The position numbers and the translations under genes were made by a program. Shown one piece after another: positions 26,230 through 36,900 of a stretch of 38,256 bases of DNA. The stretch comes from an uncultured Bacilli bacterium (GTDB taxonomy: Bacteria > Bacillota_I > Bacilli_A > RF39 > UBA660), in contig CANQMM010000009.1 of assembly GCA_947624955.1 (NCBI GenBank), positions 1-38,256 on the forward strand. The letters are read 5' to 3'. Under the pieces are notes generated by a model, which worked only from the letters and a program-made list of their open reading frames with translations, was not told the origin of the DNA and did not search any database. Every line of letters begins with the position of its first letter. Within the stretch, counting starts at the first letter, position 1.

Positions 26230-27318
26230 TTAATGATTTTTAGAGATATTTAAGATAATGCCTATACTGGCCATACTAACTAGAAGACTAGAGCCACCAT
26301 AACTTAGAAATGGCAAGGTGACCCCGGTAACGGGGATTAAGCCGATGACAACCATCAGATTTAATAAGGATTGGACGATTAAGCCAAAGGATAAACCGAA
26401 AGAGAGATATTTGGCAAAGGTATCTTCACAAGAAAGAGATACTTTTAAAGAGCGGTAGAAGATAATTAGGAGTAAACTAGTAACGATTAAGACACCTAAA
26501 AAGCCGAATTCTTCACTGATAATAGAAAAGATAAAGTCGGTTTGGGGTTCAGGTAAGTAGAAATGCTTTTGCCGAGAATTTAAAAAACCTTGACCTAGAA
26601 GGCCACCGGGACCGATAGCATATAGTGACTGAATTATTTGAAAACCACTACCTAGCGGGTCAGTCCAAGGATTTAAGAAAGACATTATTCTTTCTAGTCT
26701 ATAGGGAGCTAGAGCTATTAAAATAACGATACCGACAAGGCCAACAAGACCTATTTTTAAGAAGAAGGATAATTTAACTCCGGAAATAAAAATAATCGAT
26801 ACGAGAGTTAGGACGATAACCATCGCGGTACCAAAGTCGGGTTCTAACATAATTAAGAGAAAGAAAACACCGATAATAAGTAAGATGGGAAAAATACCTT
26901 TAACAATCGACTTAATACTTTTATCATTACTAGATAAATATTTCGAGACAAAGATTATTAAGCCAATCTTGGCAAATTCACTCGGTTGAATACCTAATGA
27001 ACCAATACCAAACCAACTCCGCGAACCATTGCGGATTTTACCGATTCCGGGAATTAAAACTAAGACGAGGAGCAAAAAACAACCAAAAAGAATTAAATTA
27101 GCTTTATTTTGGTAGAGATGGTAATCGATTTTAGAGAGGATGCACATAATAAATAAACTGATTAAGAAAAAGATTAGTTGAGCTTTGACAAACTTGTAAG
27201 GATCATTAAATTTATACTCCGCCCAAATATAACTAGATGAATAAATCATAATAAGACCAAAAACCGCTAAGGCGATGACGGAAAGGAGTAAGATGATGTC
27301 AAAATGTTTTTGTTTCAT
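26230..27318 (-). CDS. ftsW: Lipid II polymerase of the SEDS family, FtsW/SpoVE
   Basis: This is the membrane glycosyltransferase that polymerises lipid II at the septum (FtsW) or in spore cortex synthesis (SpoVE). The 362 residues form about ten membrane helices. SEDS markers are NGSRSWFGIGSLGIQPSE, the MLEPDFGTA segment with the catalytic Asp, PEPQTDFIFSIISEE, and the near-C-terminal GVTLPFLSYGGSS. In Bacillus the gene at this place is spoVE, and the SpoVD-like partner is also nearby, so it may be either. Such proteins act with a class B PBP; two candidates are in this cluster. Its strong AGGAGG ribosome site is followed by a 7-T spacer. Confidence 0.95.
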   Translation of the reverse strand: MKQKHFDIILLLSVIALAVFGLIMIYSSSYIWAEYKFNDPYKFVKAQLIFFLISLFIMCILSKIDYHLYQNKANLILFGCFLLLVLVLIPGIGKIRNGSRSWFGIGSLGIQPSEFAKIGLIIFVSKYLSSNDKSIKSIVKGIFPILLIIGVFFLLIMLEPDFGTAMVIVLTLVSIIFISGVKLSFFLKIGLVGLVGIVILIALAPYRLERIMSFLNPWTDPLGSGFQIIQSLYAIGPGGLLGQGFLNSRQKHFYLPEPQTDFIFSIISEEFGFLGVLIVTSLLLIIFYRSLKVSLSCEDTFAKYLSFGLSFGLIVQSLLNLMVVIGLIPVTGVTLPFLSYGGSSLLVSMASIGIILNISKNH

Positions 27319-27386: not shown

Positions 27387-28379
27387 TTAAAGCCAAACAC
27401 CATAAGTTACAGCGGCCATGGCTAGGATTAAACCAACTATCCAAAATAATTTGACGATATCTCGTTCAGCCCACCCTAATTGTTCAAAGTGGTGATGAAG
27501 AGGAGCCATTAAGAATACTTTTTTGTGAAATTTAATAATGGCAATCATTTGAATTAAAGAACTCAAGGTTTCAATGATAAATACCCCACCAACTAAAACT
27601 AAAGATAATTCGTGTTTGGTGAGAATAGCAATGGTGGCAAGTGCTGCCCCTAACGCTAAAGAACCGGTATCTCCCATAAAGATCTTGGCAGGATGCGTGT
27701 TATAAAATAAGAAACCTAATAAACTACCGACTAGGCAAAAGCAAAAGATGGCTAGTTCTTGATAACCTTCTAGCCAACCGGCATTCCAAGCAAGAAGACC
27801 ATAAGCAAAGAAAGCAATGGCACTTAAGCCACCCGCTAGACCATCTAAGCCATCCGTAATATTGACGGCATTGGAAGAACCAACAAGTAAGAAAAGAATA
27901 AATAAGCCATAAATCCATCCAAGATTAAGTTCAATACCTAAACTAGTTATTTCAATTACCGGGTCATTACCATTTTTCATATAGATGTAAAAGAATACTA
28001 AAGCAATAAAGGTTTGAAATACTAATTTAGTCATCACGGATAAACCAGCATTATTTTTATATTTTAACTTGATAAAATCATCGGCAAATCCTAATAAGGC
28101 ATAACCTATAAAGGTGATTAAAAGTATTATGACATTCGAACTCATTTCAATACTGCCGCGAAGCCATAAAAGAAGCATAGTTACGATAGTGGGAATGATA
28201 AATATTAAACCACCTAGAGTCGGAGTACCATCTTTAGATAAATGTCTTTCGCCAATTTTTAAACTAACTTTTTGACCAATTTTATGGCTTTTTAAGATAG
28301 GAATCAATACTAAGCCCAAGACGATGGACATAATGAAACCAATCATCATAACGAGTGCAGATTTTGCGAGAATAAGCAT
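27387..28379 (-). CDS. mraY: Phospho-N-acetylmuramoyl-pentapeptide transferase
   Basis: MraY attaches the UDP-MurNAc-pentapeptide to undecaprenyl phosphate, making lipid I. The 330-residue protein has ten membrane helices. The cytoplasmic motifs are GFADDFIKL (metal-binding aspartates), NAVNITDGLDGLAGG, GDTGSLALG and MAPLHHHFE, all intact. It is placed between the SpoVD-like PBP and ftsW. murE and murD, its normal flanking genes, are absent. A strong AGAGGTG ribosome site marks the start. Confidence 0.98.
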   Translation of the reverse strand: MLILAKSALVMMIGFIMSIVLGLVLIPILKSHKIGQKVSLKIGERHLSKDGTPTLGGLIFIIPTIVTMLLLWLRGSIEMSSNVIILLITFIGYALLGFADDFIKLKYKNNAGLSVMTKLVFQTFIALVFFYIYMKNGNDPVIEITSLGIELNLGWIYGLFILFLLVGSSNAVNITDGLDGLAGGLSAIAFFAYGLLAWNAGWLEGYQELAIFCFCLVGSLLGFLFYNTHPAKIFMGDTGSLALGAALATIAILTKHELSLVLVGGVFIIETLSSLIQMIAIIKFHKKVFLMAPLHHHFEQLGWAERDIVKLFWIVGLILAMAAVTYGVWL

Positions 28380-28465: not shown

Positions 28466-30373
28466 TTAATTACTTAATAGGAGTTTGATAGTACTACCTT
28501 CTTCGACATAGATATTGGCCGCCGGGGTTTGATAGATTACGGTATCGCCAACACCGGAAAATTCTACTTTAAATTGTTTAATGGCTGCTGAGGCTTCTTT
28601 TTTACTCATTCCATAGACATTAGGTAACTGATAATATTTTTTATCTAACCAAGTGTATTCCCGCGGTGTTACTTCACTAGCCGGTGGGAGATTTTTAATA
28701 CTGATAATACTATTGAAGACATTTTTGGCAATAGGAGCAGAGACAGTTCCTCCATATTGAGTGATCCCTTTAGGATTATCAATGGCAACATAGACAACGT
28801 AATCCGGTTTATCAGCGGGCATAAATCCCATAAAGGAAACAATGTAATTGCCGACTAAGTAATGACCATCTTGAACTTTTTGGGCTGTTCCGGTTTTACC
28901 CCCTACTCGATAATTTTCGATATAGGCATTTTTCCCGGTACCACTATTGACAACCGTCTCTAAGGCATACCGAACTAGAGATGATGTTTCTTCACTAATT
29001 ACTTGTCTTACTAACGTGCTTGATTTTTCTTCGATAACTGTTTTAGTTTCCGGTTCTAATAAACGTTTGACAATCATTGGTTGATATAATTTACCACCAT
29101 TAATAGCAGCGGAGACGGCTGTAACTTGTTGGATTGGGGTGACACTTATGCCTTGCCCAAAAGCGGTAGTAGCTAGTTCAACCGGGCCGACATTATCTAG
29201 AGAAAATAGAATTCCACTACCTTCACCATTTAAATCGATACCGGTCTTTTTTCCAAAACCAAAATCATTGATATATTTAAATAGTTTTTCTTTGCCGAGT
29301 TTTTGACCGAGCATGACAAATCCCGGGTTACAAGAGTTTTGGACAACTTCTAGGATAGTTTGACTACCGTGACCGCCACTCTTCCAACATTTGATGCGCG
29401 CACCATCGACGGCGATGGAGCCCGAGTCATGGAAAGTATCTTTAAAAATATTGACTGTTTGTTCTTCAATCGAACTAGCGAGAGTGATTATTTTAAAGGT
29501 ACTTCCGGGTTCATAAGTCATCCATATTGGAAGGTTACGATTAATAATCTCGGTGGTAGATTGTTGGTAATAATTAGGGTTAAAGTTCGGTCTTGAGGAC
29601 ATAGCTAAAACTTCCCCATTATTGGGGTCCATAACAAGAATTAGAGCTTGCTCCGGGTTATATTTACTCATAACATTATCGAGTTCTCTTTCGACAGCTA
29701 GTTGAATATCTAGATCGATGGTTAAAGCAACATCGACACCGGGAGTGGGCGCTTCATAAACTTCGGATAATTCTAGGCGATGACCTTTACCATCCGAAAA
29801 ATATTTGATAGCACCATCTTTGCCGGTAAGATATTTATCATATGCTAGTTCAATCCCCGATAAGCCTTGATTATCAATACCGACATAACCTAAAGTATGA
29901 GCTAGTAAATTATCATAAGGATAATACCTTTTGGACTCTCTTAAAAGATAGACACCATCATAATTTAAATTATCTATCCGTTCGGCGACCTCATAACTTA
30001 ACTGACGGCCTTCGGGATGGACACGTTCGATAGATGTCTTTTTATTAACGTGTTTATACATCGCATCGTAAGTAGTTCCGAGGATTTCCGCTAAATCTTT
30101 GGCCACTTGCTCTTTATCTTGAATTTGATTGGGAATAAGAACTAAAGATGTGGTTGTGATATTGGTAGCGAGTACCTGACCATTACGATCAGTAATCAAA
30201 CCGCGATCGGCAGTAATTGGCAGGTTTCTACTCCAAAGACCTTCAGCTAATTCATTTAATTCATCATATTTAAATATTTGAATATAAAATACCCGAATAA
30301 TTATGGCCATAATTAGGACGATAACAATGATAAAGGATATTTTTATTCTGACATTTTTTTCTTTAAGAAACAT
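28466..30373 (-). CDS. spoVD: Class B penicillin-binding protein, SpoVD-like
   Basis: This transpeptidase crosslinks peptidoglycan and, as SpoVD, is needed for spore cortex. It has 635 residues: one membrane helix (about 10-30), a dimerisation/pedestal domain, and a transpeptidase domain. The active site is complete: S291-T-F-K294, S347-C-N349, K493-T-G495. One PASTA domain ends the protein (about 577-635). The segment KCWKSGGHGSQT with QNSCNPGF follows SpoVD closely. The neighbouring PBP at 33108 has two PASTA domains and looks like the division PBP2B, so the order pbpB-spoVD is kept as in Bacillus, but with two other genes between them. Confidence 0.92.
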   Translation of the reverse strand: MFLKEKNVRIKISFIIVIVLIMAIIIRVFYIQIFKYDELNELAEGLWSRNLPITADRGLITDRNGQVLATNITTTSLVLIPNQIQDKEQVAKDLAEILGTTYDAMYKHVNKKTSIERVHPEGRQLSYEVAERIDNLNYDGVYLLRESKRYYPYDNLLAHTLGYVGIDNQGLSGIELAYDKYLTGKDGAIKYFSDGKGHRLELSEVYEAPTPGVDVALTIDLDIQLAVERELDNVMSKYNPEQALILVMDPNNGEVLAMSSRPNFNPNYYQQSTTEIINRNLPIWMTYEPGSTFKIITLASSIEEQTVNIFKDTFHDSGSIAVDGARIKCWKSGGHGSQTILEVVQNSCNPGFVMLGQKLGKEKLFKYINDFGFGKKTGIDLNGEGSGILFSLDNVGPVELATTAFGQGISVTPIQQVTAVSAAINGGKLYQPMIVKRLLEPETKTVIEEKSSTLVRQVISEETSSLVRYALETVVNSGTGKNAYIENYRVGGKTGTAQKVQDGHYLVGNYIVSFMGFMPADKPDYVVYVAIDNPKGITQYGGTVSAPIAKNVFNSIISIKNLPPASEVTPREYTWLDKKYYQLPNVYGMSKKEASAAIKQFKVEFSGVGDTVIYQTPAANIYVEEGSTIKLLLSN

Positions 30374-30397
30374 AGTAACCCCCTAGAATTATTGTAT

Positions 30398-30964
30398 TTA
30401 TTCTTCACGAGTTTTAGTACTTACTAGTTCGCTTGTAAAGACTAGTTGATACTTATTAGTAAGTTTTTTACAAGTAACCATCGTTAGTAGATTATTAGGA
30501 GGATCCAAAAGGGTGTGCATATATCCGGTCTTCGGGATTTCTTTAATTTCCATTAATTTATAAGTATAGATTTTATCGTAGTAGATAGTTATTTCATCAC
30601 CAATAGATAATTTATCTAAATCATTAAAATAAGCATTGCTAGCCGGACCACTATGGCCGGCTAAGATGAGATTACTATGTAATTCATTGGGCATTTTAGA
30701 ACCGTTGAGGATTTCAATATTTAAATTAACGTTATTTAAATCAGGATCATTGGGATAGAGAACTTTTTGAAGATTAATTTTAGGAATAGAAAGAATTAGA
30801 TTATCGGGTACTACTGTTAATTCAGGTTCTTCTAGGTATTCAGTTATAATCTTTTTTTCTGTAATAGTCGTCTTCGTACTTTGATATTGCTGGTAAATGG
30901 TTAAGGCTAGAGCGATAACTATTAAGAGGATGCCAAGATATCTAATTATTTTTCTTTTTACCAT
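30398..30964 (-). CDS. Sortase, probable class D-like
   Basis: This transpeptidase anchors surface proteins to lipid II or the wall. The 188-residue protein has an N-terminal membrane helix (about 8-25) and an extracellular catalytic domain. His104 (AGHSG) and Cys165 (VTCKK) are present. The third catalytic residue, normally Arg about eight or nine positions after the Cys, appears to be Gln173 (NKYQLVF). Its start lies inside the 3' end of the surface protein gene (23-base overlap) and has no clear ribosome site, so it is probably translated by coupling. The substrate is almost certainly that protein, whose sorting motif is VPDTA. Confidence 0.85.
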   Translation of the reverse strand: MVKRKIIRYLGILLIVIALALTIYQQYQSTKTTITEKKIITEYLEEPELTVVPDNLILSIPKINLQKVLYPNDPDLNNVNLNIEILNGSKMPNELHSNLILAGHSGPASNAYFNDLDKLSIGDEITIYYDKIYTYKLMEIKEIPKTGYMHTLLDPPNNLLTMVTCKKLTNKYQLVFTSELVSTKTREE

Positions 30965-33017
30965 AGCAGTATAAGCCTACGCCGATAAAGAGTAGATAAC
31001 TACAACTTACCGCAGTATCGGGAACGGGAATGATAGTTTCTTCATCAGGGATGGGTTCTTCTTTTTCTTCAGGAGTTTCGACAATATCTGGCTGAGGAAT
31101 TCCCGGTGTTGGTGGCGTCATTGGTAAGTGTTGATTATAGATGATGATTTCTTCTAAAGCTTTATTTTCAACGATTTGGAACCAATAGACTTGGTGGTTA
31201 GGTAAATAATCAGGATTTGGGGTATCTTCGATTAAATAGTAATTGCCATATGGTAAATCATTTAGGTAGATAATGCCAAAATCATCAGTAGTCATTTCAT
31301 AAAGTAATTCATCTTGAGAATTATATATTTTAAATTTAGTATTATGAATCGGTTTTAAGGTTTCTTCATCGAGTTTTAAAATTTTTAAATTACCTAATAT
31401 AATGGGTTCAGTACTAGTTATTTCATAGATGTGATTATTTTCAGTAATAGTTATTTCATATGTTTGGGTATCGAGAAGATATCCGGTTGGTGGAGTTATT
31501 TCTTTGATAGTATATGTTCCATATGGGAGTAAACTACTTGCTGCTTCGTTATTCTCATTAATTGTCAGGGTTTCCATTAAGTTATTTTTACTATCCCTAA
31601 TTTCATATTGAGCATTAGTTAGAGGAATATCATAATCACTATGTTTGTGAATTTTTATTTGACCCTGAATTATCGGTTCAGTACTAGTTATCTCATAGAT
31701 ATGGTTATTTTCAGTAATAGTTACTTCATATGTTTGGGTATCAAGAAGATATCCGGTTGGTGGAGTTATTTCTTTGATAGTATATGTTCCATATGGGAGT
31801 AAACTACTTACTGCTTCGTTATTCTCATTAATTGTCAAAGTTTCCACTAAGTTATTTTTACTATCTCTAATTTCATACTGAGCATTAGTTAGGGGTAAAT
31901 CATAACTACTTTGTTTGTGAATCTTGATTTTTCCTTTTAGGAGCTCATTATTTAAGGTAAATTCGAGATGATAAGTATCTTCTTTTAAAGTAAAGTAATG
32001 TTTAGTCAAATCTAAGACATAACCGTTTGGAGCAATTTCTTCTTGGAAATAGTAATCGCCAAGTTCTAAGAATTTATCAAATACAGCTTCCCCATTTTGA
32101 TTGGTGACTAACTCCCCTACTTTTTGGTTATTCAACTGATAGATACCATAGTGAGCATTAGGAAGAAGAGTTTGATTATCTAAAGACTTTTTAGTAATCT
32201 TTAAAGATGGTTGGATTGTCCTATAACTATAATTATAAGTTAGATGGGTTAAATCCCCGGGATGGACTACTTTTTGGGAGCTTAAAGAATAGTATAATGT
32301 CGGTTGTTCGTGGTAATAAACTTTAGGTGATAGACTAAAAGTGGTTAACCCTTCATTAGTATTGGAAAGAGTAATATTTCCGTCATTTAATTCAACTTTA
32401 TTACCGGTATTTTGCATTATTTGATAATTCTTTAACTGAGAAGCACTTTTAGTAAGTGGCGCGTTCCCTATTAGGGTAGATGGGATAACTAGTTCAGGTG
32501 GGGTTAGAATATTAGTGACTAGTTCTTCTAGTTCGGCAATTTCATCTTGATATTTAGTATCATCCCGCTCCCCATTTAGGGTTTTCGTAAAATAGATATC
32601 GCTATCAGGTGCAGATTCTTGCCAAATGAGATATTGGGTAATAATCCACCACTTTTCAGCGGTATGGTCGTGGGTGGCATCTTTATAATTGTATCCATAA
32701 TAAGCTAAAGCAGCAATACGGTTCCAAGTGGCATTGCTAATATCGAGGATTTTGGGAATATCCGTGGTGTATTGGGCATATTTTGTATTAGATGAGACCA
32801 CAACATAAGGTTCTAGACAATAAACGGGGGAATTATCGCTACTCCGTTTAGTAAATTGCGCAGTGGTATACTTTATCAGTTTACCATTCTTCTCAAATTT
32901 TAGATAATTACCGACGATGTAAGTATCTAAATAAATTTTTCCCTCATAGGTTTCAGCTTTTACTTGGAGAGAGGCAAGACCAAGTAAAATGATTAAAAAA
33001 TATAAGATTTTTTTCAT
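30942..33017 (-). CDS. Sortase-anchored surface protein with thioester and SpaA domains
   Basis: This predicted cell-wall adhesin or pilin has 691 residues. A signal peptide (1-21) precedes a thioester domain: Cys67 (YCLEP) and Gln128 (TQYLIW) form the likely Cys-Gln crosslink, which covalently grabs host or other surface amines in such adhesins. Four CnaB/SpaA-like domains follow (about 255-345, 358-447, 448-537, 540-635), with E residues in contexts like IKEITPP that support isopeptide bonds. A Pro/Glu stalk leads to the sorting signal VPDTA, a hydrophobic stretch and a KKKNN tail. The sortase gene overlaps it. It is oddly placed between two PBPs. Confidence 0.88.
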   Translation of the reverse strand: MKKILYFLIILLGLASLQVKAETYEGKIYLDTYIVGNYLKFEKNGKLIKYTTAQFTKRSSDNSPVYCLEPYVVVSSNTKYAQYTTDIPKILDISNATWNRIAALAYYGYNYKDATHDHTAEKWWIITQYLIWQESAPDSDIYFTKTLNGERDDTKYQDEIAELEELVTNILTPPELVIPSTLIGNAPLTKSASQLKNYQIMQNTGNKVELNDGNITLSNTNEGLTTFSLSPKVYYHEQPTLYYSLSSQKVVHPGDLTHLTYNYSYRTIQPSLKITKKSLDNQTLLPNAHYGIYQLNNQKVGELVTNQNGEAVFDKFLELGDYYFQEEIAPNGYVLDLTKHYFTLKEDTYHLEFTLNNELLKGKIKIHKQSSYDLPLTNAQYEIRDSKNNLVETLTINENNEAVSSLLPYGTYTIKEITPPTGYLLDTQTYEVTITENNHIYEITSTEPIIQGQIKIHKHSDYDIPLTNAQYEIRDSKNNLMETLTINENNEAASSLLPYGTYTIKEITPPTGYLLDTQTYEITITENNHIYEITSTEPIILGNLKILKLDEETLKPIHNTKFKIYNSQDELLYEMTTDDFGIIYLNDLPYGNYYLIEDTPNPDYLPNHQVYWFQIVENKALEEIIIYNQHLPMTPPTPGIPQPDIVETPEEKEEPIPDEETIIPVPDTAVSCSYLLFIGVGLYCYGKKKNN
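31406..31935 (-). repeat. Two tandem 270-bp copies encoding adjacent SpaA domains
   Basis: The coding DNA repeats with a period of 270 bp (90 codons): copy one 31406-31675, copy two from 31676, with similarity fading near 31935. The encoded domains differ at about seven residues by my count. Their near identity at the DNA level points to a recent duplication and a site for copy-number change. Confidence 0.9.
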
Positions 33018-33107
33018 AAATAAAAATCAGTCCTTTCACTTTATATATTATAGGTAAATGGCTGATTTCCTTTTTTTTTATGTAAATTTTTGAAAAAAAT
33101 GGCAATT

Positions 33108-35243
33108 TTATTCATTTTCAGGGTTATTTTCGACTGTACCGAGGGTTATAGTGAGAGTTGAATTAGCATCGATTAGCGTGCCTTTAGCAATACTACTTAC
33201 ACTCACCGTACCATAACCACTGATGGTATAAGGAAGATTTATTAGATTACAAAAAGTAATTATTTCATTTCGCGTCCAACCGACAATATCCGGCATAGTA
33301 ATTTCTTCTCCTTCGGTATATAGGAAGACTTTATCACCGGCAAGGGCTTGACGGTTAAGTGGGTATTGCTTAATGATATATTTACCATTACCGATAACTA
33401 TCGGAGTTAAACCCATATTTTTTAATTTTTCTTCGATATCCATTACTTCCATACTTAAGTAGCTTTCAATTTGTTTAAGAGAATTTTCATCATCAGGGTC
33501 TTCTTCAATAATTTCGATATTCTTATATTTAGCGACCTCAGCGATAAGATTGGCAATGGATGAAGCTACTTTACCAATTCCACCGTGGAACTTTTTAACC
33601 GAAACATATAGAATATAACGGGGATTATCGTAAGGGAAGACACCGGCAAAGGAATTGATATAATCATAAGTACCCGTTAGATAATGGCCATTCTCGGCAA
33701 TATTTGCAGTTCCGGTTTTACCCATAACAGGGACAGTGGCAGGTTGATAACGCGAAGCATCAGTTCTACCGACATTAAGGACGGTCGCCCGCATTAACTC
33801 TTGCATTTTGGTTGTTGTTTCGTGGGAAGCCACTTTACGAATTTCCGTTCTTTCATTTTGTAAGATGACTTCCCCATTATTACCATCGACTATTTTATCG
33901 ACAATATAAGGTTTAATTATCGTCCCATCGTTTACTAAAAAAGATAAAGCTTGTAAAGTTTGAACAGGTGTGGTTAAAATACCTTGCCCATAGGAGGCCG
34001 TAGCAATATCTGTACGATATTTAAGATCAATTTTCCCGGCCGATTCATTAGGTAAAGTAATACCGGTAGGAGATCCAAAACCGAGCTTTTCATAATAGTC
34101 AGTTAGTCTTTTGGCTCCTAGTTCTAAAGCTAAAGTAGTAGCAGCGACATTGGATGAATAAGTAAAACCATCATCAAAAGTAATTCTTCCCCACCCGGTA
34201 CCGTTAAAGTCTTTAATCGTATAATCATCGACTTGAATATGCCCGGAATCATAGTAAGCACTACCATCATAAATTCCGGCTTCCATAGCGGCAGCAAAAG
34301 AAAATATCTTCATCGTACTACCCGGTTCATAAGGATTACTAGTTAAAGGATTTTTATATTCGGTAATATCTAAAGTATTAGGATTAAATGTTGGATAAGC
34401 GGCAGAAGCTAAAATCGCTCCGGTTTTCCCATCCATAATAGCTACGTGGGCGGCTTCAATCTCGGAGTCAGTAGTAATCTTCGTAATGGCATTCTCGGCA
34501 AATAGTTGAATTTTATTATCGATAGTTAAATAGATATTATTACCGGCTTCCGGTAAGTTTAATGTGGCTTCGGTATTAGGCATTTGATAACCATAAGCAT
34601 CTTTTTGATAGATACTTATACCATCTTTACCGGTTAATTCGTCATTAAAATACGTTTCAATACCCATTCCTTCACCGGCGATTTTCCCCTCTTCATTCTG
34701 ACGAGCATAACCTATGATATAAGGAGCAAAGGATTGCATATTATAAAATCTCTTAGTCGAAGCAATAAAGTCAATTCCGGGCAGTTTTAAAGCTTCAATA
34801 GCACTCTTAGTATTCTCCATTATTCCCCGACCATTGGGACCCAATTCAACCTGGTATAAACCTTCTTTATTTAATAAACTTAAAATATATTCTTCATCCA
34901 TATTGAGTATTTCGGATAAAGCGTGAGCAGTCATCGATTTATCGACCACGTGTTGAGGATTTTTAGGATCAGTTGTTCTTCTTTCATCTAAGTAAGCAAT
35001 GACCGTATAAGAGTTAACATTTTGGGCTAAGAGTTCGCCATTGACATCGTAGATATTCCCCCGATTAGCTTCTAGGGTTTTAGTTGTGGTATTACGATTA
35101 TTAGCAAACTCTGCCAAATCGATACCATCGACAGTCGGACTTAAGACCACAACACTTAGCTTAATTAAAATCACTAAAAAAGAAAAAAGAACACAGATGA
35201 TAACTAAACGATTAGCAACAATGGTCTTTTTTCTTCTCTTCAT
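33108..35243 (-). CDS. ftsI: Class B penicillin-binding protein, division PBP2B/FtsI
   Basis: This transpeptidase crosslinks septal peptidoglycan, working with FtsW. The 711 residues comprise a cytoplasmic basic tail, one membrane helix (about 11-34), the pedestal with RGNIYDVNGE (61-70), and the transpeptidase domain. The motifs are complete: S309-T-M-K312, S363-S-N365, K509-T-G511. Two PASTA repeats end the protein (about 585-705). The gene follows ftsL, as pbpB does in Bacillus. An AAGGAG site precedes the ATG. It is separated from the SpoVD-like PBP by the adhesin and sortase genes. Confidence 0.94.
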   Translation of the reverse strand: MKRRKKTIVANRLVIICVLFSFLVILIKLSVVVLSPTVDGIDLAEFANNRNTTTKTLEANRGNIYDVNGELLAQNVNSYTVIAYLDERRTTDPKNPQHVVDKSMTAHALSEILNMDEEYILSLLNKEGLYQVELGPNGRGIMENTKSAIEALKLPGIDFIASTKRFYNMQSFAPYIIGYARQNEEGKIAGEGMGIETYFNDELTGKDGISIYQKDAYGYQMPNTEATLNLPEAGNNIYLTIDNKIQLFAENAITKITTDSEIEAAHVAIMDGKTGAILASAAYPTFNPNTLDITEYKNPLTSNPYEPGSTMKIFSFAAAMEAGIYDGSAYYDSGHIQVDDYTIKDFNGTGWGRITFDDGFTYSSNVAATTLALELGAKRLTDYYEKLGFGSPTGITLPNESAGKIDLKYRTDIATASYGQGILTTPVQTLQALSFLVNDGTIIKPYIVDKIVDGNNGEVILQNERTEIRKVASHETTTKMQELMRATVLNVGRTDASRYQPATVPVMGKTGTANIAENGHYLTGTYDYINSFAGVFPYDNPRYILYVSVKKFHGGIGKVASSIANLIAEVAKYKNIEIIEEDPDDENSLKQIESYLSMEVMDIEEKLKNMGLTPIVIGNGKYIIKQYPLNRQALAGDKVFLYTEGEEITMPDIVGWTRNEIITFCNLINLPYTISGYGTVSVSSIAKGTLIDANSTLTITLGTVENNPENE

Positions 35244-35263: not shown

Positions 35264-35551
35264 TTATTTTTGATTAACAATTACGATGTTATCATTATTA
35301 TAAGTCAATCCCAATTCGTTTGCAAGTGCTTGAATTTTATCGAGACTAGTTAATTCGCTGATTTTCATATCGAGTGCTTCATTGATATTTTCTTGGTATT
35401 CGATATTATTTTTTAGTTTTTCAACCTCGATATTAGTCTCGGATACTAAGGCCTTAGAATAGACATTAACTACCGGTAATAAGATTAATAAACCAATAAT
35501 AACGATAAATAACATCTTTTCAATTTTTAATGTTTGACGCTTCTTTTTCAT
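35264..35551 (-). CDS. ftsL: Cell-division protein FtsL
   Basis: This small divisome protein partners with FtsQ and FtsB/DivIC. The 95 residues have a Lys/Arg-rich N terminus, one membrane helix (about 13-33) and a short extracellular coiled coil (about 38-75: heptad-like Leu/Ile pattern with Glu and Asn). Sequence identity in this family is low; the call rests on topology and on its place between rsmH and pbpB. The start follows GAAAGGAT, overlapping the end of rsmH. Confidence 0.85.
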   Translation of the reverse strand: MKKKRQTLKIEKMLFIVIIGLLILLPVVNVYSKALVSETNIEVEKLKNNIEYQENINEALDMKISELTSLDKIQALANELGLTYNNDNIVIVNQK

Positions 35552-35554
35552 AAT

Positions 35555-36466
35555 TTAAATCCTTTCAATAATCCTTAATTTAGCACTTTTACTACGCGAA
35601 TTTTCATCTATTTCGGTACTGCTTGGTAATATGGGTTTACGATTAACTAATTTAATAGTTGGTGTATATTCGTCGGGAATAGTTGGTAAACCTTTTACCA
35701 TATCAGCTACTTCACTATATTTTTTAAATATTTGTTTAGTTATCCGATCTTCTAATGAATGGAAGGTGATAACACATAAGCGACCTTGGGGTTTTAATAA
35801 ATCAATTGCATCTTTTAAGGCACTTTCTAATACTTTTAATTCACTATTCACCTCAATCCGAATGGCTTGAAAAATAGTTCTTTCGGGATGATGAAGATAA
35901 AAGTATTTAGAACCCACGGCACTTTTAATTACCTCTACTAGTTCTTGAGTAGTAGTTAAAGGTTTTTCTTTTCTTTGAGAAACTATCTTGTTGGCAATCA
36001 ATTTAGATAGCTTTTCTTCCCCATAAGTATAGAAGATATTAGTTAATTCTTCTTGAGAATACGTACTGACTACGGCTTCAGCTGTCAACTTAGCATCTCT
36101 ATCCATCCGCATATCTAAGGGAGCATTTTGCATAAAGGTAAATCCCCGCTCAGCATTGTCAATTTGCGGACTAGATAATCCTAAATCGAATAGAATACCG
36201 TCGACTTTTTCATCTAGATAATCTTTGAGGTTAACAAAGTTAGTATGAATTAAAGTAAAATTTGGACTAATTTCTGCTAAGACTTTTTGGGAATAGGAAA
36301 TGGCTTCCGCATCTTGATCGAAGGCATATAAGTGACCGGTTGTTAGTTTTTTTAGGATTGCACTACTATGTCCGGCATAACCTAAAGTTGCATCAATATA
36401 GATGCCATCGGGCTTAATATTTAAACCATCAATAGCTTCTTTTTTTAAAACGCTATAGTGTTTCAT
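35555..36466 (-). CDS. rsmH: 16S rRNA (cytosine-1402-N4)-methyltransferase
   Basis: RsmH (MraW) methylates N4 of cytosine 1402 in the ribosomal P site, using SAM. The 303-residue protein has the family start [13 protein letters not shown], the SAM motif [41 protein letters not shown], and the C-terminal [11 protein letters not shown] block. It overlaps mraZ by an ATGA, has no strong ribosome site of its own, and is probably translated by coupling. Its place, second in the division cluster, is the standard one. Confidence 0.97.
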
Positions 36467-36900
36467 TCGTAGTTCACATCCGTAAACAAGCTTTCAGCAA
36501 TTTCATCGAGGTTATCAGCATTTTCGGTCATGAAATTATCCCAATTAGCTTTGGACCAAATTTCAATACGATCGTTGGCGCCGATTACAACACATTCTTT
36601 TTGTAAATCGGCGTAACCAACTAATGGGGAGGTAATGTTTATTCGGCCTTGACGGTCAAATTCACATTCAGTAGCACCGGAGAAGAAGGATCTTGTAAAT
36701 GTTCGGGCAACTTTTTTAGTAAAAGGTAGAGTTTTAAGTTTGGCAACAATATTATTCCATTCGGTTTCGCTATACACGTATAGGCATTTTTCAATACCGC
36801 GAGCGAGAATGAACTTATCCCCAAGTTCACTACGAAACTTTGCTGGCACGATAAGGCGCCCTTTTTCATCAATATTATGATGAAATTCACCCATGAACAT
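36463..36900 (-). CDS. mraZ: Transcriptional regulator MraZ
   Basis: MraZ is an AbrB-like DNA-binding protein that controls its own division/cell-wall operon. The 145 residues contain two swapped AbrB-like halves, each with the family DxxGR motif: [13 protein letters not shown] near 12-24 and FDRQGRINI in the second half. MFMGEF at the N terminus is family-typical. It is the first gene of the cluster. Its ribosome site is the poor GGGGGA that is itself part of the proposed operator, so bound MraZ could block both transcription and translation start. Confidence 0.95.

Follow-up and report, generated by a model that had tools for sequence, protein, structure and literature searches.

A thioester adhesin and its overlapping Gln/Lys-type sortase: a candidate surface display cassette of a gut Bacilli family, lodged between two division transpeptidase genes

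An adhesin gene and an overlapping sortase gene reside within the division (dcw) cluster of an uncultured Bacilli bacterium, in a stretch of 38,256 nt (hereafter, the window) belonging to a draft genome of 1.17 Mb in 65 contigs. Adhesin-sortase pairs of this type recur as a standard cassette in this gut Bacilli family, and the sortase falls into a clade in which the Arg regarded as catalytic is replaced by Gln, and a second position is invariantly occupied by Lys. We hold with fair confidence, judging from the sequence, that the pair is a self-contained display cassette inserted with its own promoter at the pbpX/spoVD joint, and that the Gln/Lys sortase would work on the VPDTA signal of its partner. 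The dcw location of the cassette looks incidental, and coupling to division as a selected arrangement is improbable.

All the genes concerned are on the minus strand. The dcw cluster opens with the conserved genes mraZ, rsmH and ftsL (35264-36900), followed by pbpX (33108-35243), encoding a PASTA transpeptidase of the division type nearest to PBP2X/SpoVD, the gene of a thioester-domain/SpaA surface adhesin of 691 aa (30942-33017), a sortase gene (30398-30964; 188 aa, one N-terminal membrane helix), a gene for a SpoVD-like PASTA transpeptidase (28466-30373), mraY (27387-28379; TIGR00445) and ftsW/spoVE (26230-27318; TIGR02614, above cut-off). The SpoVD label fits the 28466-30373 product of the two PBPs, which passes the NCBIfam cut-off (TIGR02214, 724 against 688 bits). 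The last 23 nt of the adhesin ORF are shared with the sortase ORF. A preliminary description of this DNA had a sortase gene overlapping a gene for a VPDTA-tagged thioester/SpaA protein, the two lying co-directionally between two PASTA transpeptidases; coordinates, strand and overlap are all correct, and PASTA domains were recognized by profile in both flanking PBPs.

The adhesin matches the Pfam TED domain (27.0 bits, cut-off 22) and carries four SpaA stretches (1e-65). Its layout comprises a plain signal peptide (MKKILYFLIILLGLASLQVKA), in which the YSIRK/GXXS motif is absent, the thioester domain (aa ~64-148), four SpaA repeats, and the VPDTA sorting motif (31011-31025), followed by a hydrophobic stretch and a basic KKK tail. 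The presumed thioester residues are Cys67 (VYCLEP; codon at 32817-32819), kept in the dcw orthologs, and Gln129 (TQYLIW; 32631-32633). According to the mechanism proposed, the protein would be exported by the Sec route and stay in the membrane through its hydrophobic C-terminus; the sortase encoded by the overlapping gene would cut VPDT/A, and the adhesin would then be joined to a peptidoglycan precursor. The SpaA stalk would present the thioester head, predicted to form a covalent bond with a surface amine of the host or of a neighbor.

A second thioester-domain-like protein, which ends in a VPDT/IPNT tail and is not accompanied by a sortase, occurs in 3/3 species of the genus (L223:1387-2754 in G000:C6, the window's genome; L221:1357-2724 in G002:C11; L224:1394-2734 in G001:C7). 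In these paralogs the Cys of the dcw adhesin motif VYCLEP has been lost (VYPLQV, VYLLQP, VFLSNP). The window's genome encodes two SpaA proteins only, the window adhesin and the C6 protein, which ends in a VPDTM tail, has a degenerate thioester motif, and is not adjoined by a sortase. The second sortase of the genome (L002:1171-2013, corresponding to G000:C8:34150-34993; 280 aa) adjoins an NPTTG protein, and carries Lys (KEKVVMHAKL) at the position of the Arg, which its relatives retain. Since this other enzyme differs in type and in neighbor, the window sortase probably serves both VPDT proteins. It had been described as dedicated to the adhesin; it is indeed the only VPxT-type sortase of the genome, but the C6 protein has no sortase of its own. 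As two proteins are probably served, the term is to be taken loosely.

The assignment of the 188-aa protein to sortases is supported by Pfam (PF04203, 57.7 bits against a cut-off of 26.6; 1.3e-15) and by an AlphaFold model (mean pLDDT 93) with an eight-strand fold, for which the top Foldseek matches listed are all sortases. The catalytic His104 (LAGHSG; codon at 30653-30655) and Cys165 (MVTC; 30470-30472), the last residue of beta-7, are in place, as is Thr164. The Arg on beta-8 has been called catalytic in all native sortases identified (PMC8361268). The corresponding column is occupied in the window sortase by Gln173 (30446-30448), the second residue of beta-8. That the Gln stems from an alignment error was ruled out, since a HMMER pairwise alignment (8t28), two MAFFT alignments and the strand positions of the model concur. 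Moreover, Arg is absent within 18 residues after the Cys in 50/59 Gln-type sortases.

His104, Gly106, Phe113, Lys145 (codon at 30530-30532), Thr164, Cys165 and Gln173 are invariant in 20/20 aligned family members. These had been chosen after the Gln had been seen, and a fairer test is thus given by a set of 100 distinct sortases encoded at the loci fetched. Fifty-nine of them carry Gln, and three Tyr or His, in the Arg column; all 62 members of this clade have Lys at position 145 (62/62). Among 37 Arg-type sortases, Lys is found at this position in 2, and Pro in 22. In a tree built without these columns, from a short alignment that leaves many forks unresolved, the 62 sequences group together (SH-aLRT 90) with one Arg-type sister, and the not-Arg state requires only two changes. 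Across 245 genomes sampled from the phylum, the window's family alone gave strong profile matches (E<=1e-36), and the weaker matches outside it are of the Arg type, where readable. Within the family, 87 of 145 sampled genomes match the clade profile at E<=1e-25. Plasmid records searched for relatives of the clade gave no match, and no description of sortases lacking the Arg was found in the open-access literature.

The thioester domain was matched 50 times in 60 relatives, and in 31 of the 50 cases a same-strand sortase gene lies just downstream. In 49/50 Gln-type pairs the stop codon of the partner gene overlaps the sortase start. Sorting signals were read from the last residues of the gene ending at, or just before, each sortase gene. 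P4 is Val or Ile in 44/50 partners of Gln-type sortases, the residues following Thr being mixed, and Leu, Met or Tyr in 17/17 partners of Arg-type enzymes. The residue swap thus tracks a second residue and the sorting signal.

The order pbpX-adhesin-sortase-spoVD is identical in a second species of the genus (G002; CANQIR010000024.1, uncultured Bacilli bacterium, isolate Lapin-027__bin52), with identities of 73, 42, 55 and 86%, respectively; its repetition in a second species denotes that the arrangement is not due to chance. In a third species (G001) the orthologous adhesin gene resides elsewhere, ~10 kb off, past a convergent pyruvate kinase gene. Orthology is indicated by 44% identity over the first 260 aa, against ~30% or less for the other paralog over most of that length. 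Orthologs of the dcw adhesin are 42% (L063) and about 41% (L064) identical to the window protein. The pbpX gene of the third species (L064:11428-13548) is split into two frames by an in-frame TGA or a shift, possibly an assembly error.

Neighborhoods of pbpX were examined at 71 distinct loci across the family, of which 63 have a readable downstream gene. The adhesin-sortase insert was found in G002 alone among the 63 readable loci, and neither the 40 loci fetched around pbpX nor the 47 from a scan of genome contigs revealed it outside the genus. The pair lacks, therefore, the conserved cluster position across relatives expected of a dcw component. The mraZ-rsmH-ftsL-pbpX segment is kept almost throughout the family, and what follows pbpX varies by genome. 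In eight other loci (G003, G005, G014, G017, G018, G021, G027, L148) 3-8 unrelated genes separate pbpX from a same-strand spoVD. The cargo scanned at the joint includes AbiEi/AbiEii plus a polysaccharide deacetylase, hybrid histidine kinases, an M23/G5 peptidase, teichoic-acid glycerophosphotransferases, a radical SAM/SPASM protein, a LytR-CpsA-Psr protein and an AAA_14 ATPase. Unrelated genes differing from relative to relative (toxin-antitoxin, kinases, peptidases, teichoic-acid enzymes) stand at the joint in L068, L075, L076, L081, L084, L088, L093 and L148. In two outgroup families (G057, G059) pbpX directly adjoins spoVD. The joint resembles an insertion hot spot within an otherwise conserved division cluster. 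Given the varied cargo received in the family, the adhesin-sortase pair is to be seen as one such cargo. Cassettes of this kind are dispersed through the family, and one may have been inserted at the joint in this genus, bringing its promoter along.

The adhesin seems to be transcribed from its own promoter. The gap between pbpX and the adhesin gene is 90 nt long in the window, 185 nt in G002, and both gaps end with GGAAAT-N12-TATAAT (33047-33070 in the window, minus strand), after which come (A)GTGAAAGGA and the start of the adhesin. In the window element the -10 is good, the -35 weak. A simple promoter pattern is not in excess in the window's genome (4 sites against 4 in the control; 14 against 7 if mismatches are allowed). 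Near-identical copies of the element in G002 are 11 against 6. The 24-base pattern used when mismatches were allowed was built from the sites themselves, and is thus not independent. The case for a promoter is built on these G002 copies, and on the element being common to both thioester-domain loci, as nearly the same 24-mer precedes in G002 the second thioester-domain gene and further loci. Some of the latter sites lead into PD-(D/E)XK-like genes, and several are at contig ends. In the window's genome two further sites precede an ABC-transporter ATPase gene and another accessory gene. The G002 element (GGAAATTGGAAAGTTTTTTATAAT) was noted in ~10 copies, on contigs C11, C18, C22, C24, C37, C48, C52, C96 and C106, often preceded by a GTGTCAA hairpin and leading into PD-(D/E)XK-like genes; many of the copies are at contig ends. 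A scan with consensus promoters and terminators gave no excess over shuffles, and was set aside.

On the pbpX side, a terminator-like hairpin with a T-run directly follows pbpX in G002; its stem is AT-rich, and 8/200 shuffles fold as well. On the spoVD side, the gap is 24 nt in the window (30374-30397) and 25 nt in G002, includes a ribosome site, and is too short for a full promoter; no hairpin or terminator was seen in it in either species. Read-through from the cassette into spoVD-mraY-ftsW is therefore likely, and a transcript running from the adhesin start into these genes is predicted for this genus. Within 33018-33107 (minus strand), RNA reading through from upstream would pair GGAAAUCAG with CUGAUUUU, masking the ribosome site of the adhesin, which would stay free of this fold in RNA started at the local promoter. 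The hairpin has a z of about -2, is equalled by 5/200 shuffles, and is not clearly kept in G002; it was set aside.

How far do these data agree with the notion that expression of the pair accompanies septal synthesis, with anchoring at the septum via lipid II made locally? Co-directionality, conservation in two species with the same gene order, and the absence of a terminator in the short gap to spoVD speak for this proposal, and in S. aureus and group B Streptococcus surface proteins are known to be anchored at the septum (PMC5962339, PMC3676364). As a selected arrangement, the coupling is not upheld. The pair is at the dcw cluster in two species only, the ortholog of the third species is elsewhere, unrelated cargo is found at the joint, and dozens of comparable cassettes are found apart from dcw genes. 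Furthermore, the adhesin has a promoter-like element shared with non-division genes, a terminator-like hairpin comes after pbpX in G002, and the signal peptide has no YSIRK/GXXS. Division-coupled display is, all considered, very unlikely; location alone does not demonstrate it, and the dcw setting is best seen as a one-genus curiosity. The evidence suggests late dcw genes driven by the adhesin promoter, rather than an adhesin driven by division genes. That spoVD, mraY and ftsW may actually depend on transcription of the cassette is a real possibility, somewhat short of an even chance: the gap is too short for a promoter and in G002 the pbpX side ends in a hairpin with a T-run, but a promoter may be hosted within the sortase gene, and the AT-rich stem of the hairpin is equalled by some shuffled sequences. 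The read-through is worth a line; attention is merited by the Gln/Lys clade.

Since the Arg has been described as catalytic in all native sortases identified (PMC8361268), its replacement by Gln could imply weak or absent activity. The window enzyme might accordingly be a dead or slow protein serving as a binding scaffold, anchoring being carried out by the second sortase of the genome. This is unlikely, because His, Cys and the TC motif are invariant in the clade, the copies overlap their own substrate genes, and the second sortase adjoins a protein with a different signal. The Gln/Lys sortase is a new variant, and probably active. Catalysis would proceed via His104 and Cys165; Gln173, along with Lys145 on the beta-6/beta-7 side of the pocket, would probably take over the work of Arg in holding the substrate and the transition state. 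Gln may supply a neutral hydrogen-bond donor, Lys the charge, in a pocket reshaped for Val/Ile. The idea that the family hosts a separate sortase class, marked by His-Cys-Gln plus the clade Lys, by Val/Ile-Pro-x-Thr signals and by an overlapping adhesin gene, and active without Arg, is slightly favored. A widespread natural clade which replaces a residue taken as required in all sortases offers a direct test of the purpose of Arg. Its members are candidate ligases of VPxT specificity, apparently undemanding as to the residue that follows Thr, and call for caution in annotation and inhibitor design based on the His-Cys-Arg triad.

Compared with known systems, the adhesin resembles the TIE proteins SfbI and Cpa (PMC4450167) in its N-terminal thioester domain with Cys and Gln motifs, SpaA-type stalk, secretion signal and sorting signal. 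Unlike them, it has VPDTA in place of LPXTG, and its gene overlaps a sortase gene and sits, in this genus, inside the dcw cluster. With the surface proteins displayed at the septum of S. aureus and group B Streptococcus it shares sortase anchoring and the idea of septal deposition, but the YSIRK/GXXS motif of those systems is missing. Among solved structures, the class C pilin sortases (4d7w, 8t28) are the best sequence matches to the window sortase, and their genes likewise adjoin those of SpaA-type proteins. Yet the window enzyme is short, scores 48.5 bits against the class C cut-off of 160, and has the catalytic Arg replaced by Gln, the loop Pro by Lys, and Leu at P4 of the signal by Val/Ile. 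Class E and class D sortases (Thermobifida SrtE, C. perfringens SrtD) have close folds in Foldseek, but carry the Arg, and their NCBIfam cut-offs are similarly missed (37.2 against 160 and 29.2 against 165 bits, respectively). The layout of SrtE1, with Cys320 and Arg329, is matched in the window sortase by Cys165 at the end of beta-7 and Gln173 as the second residue of beta-8.
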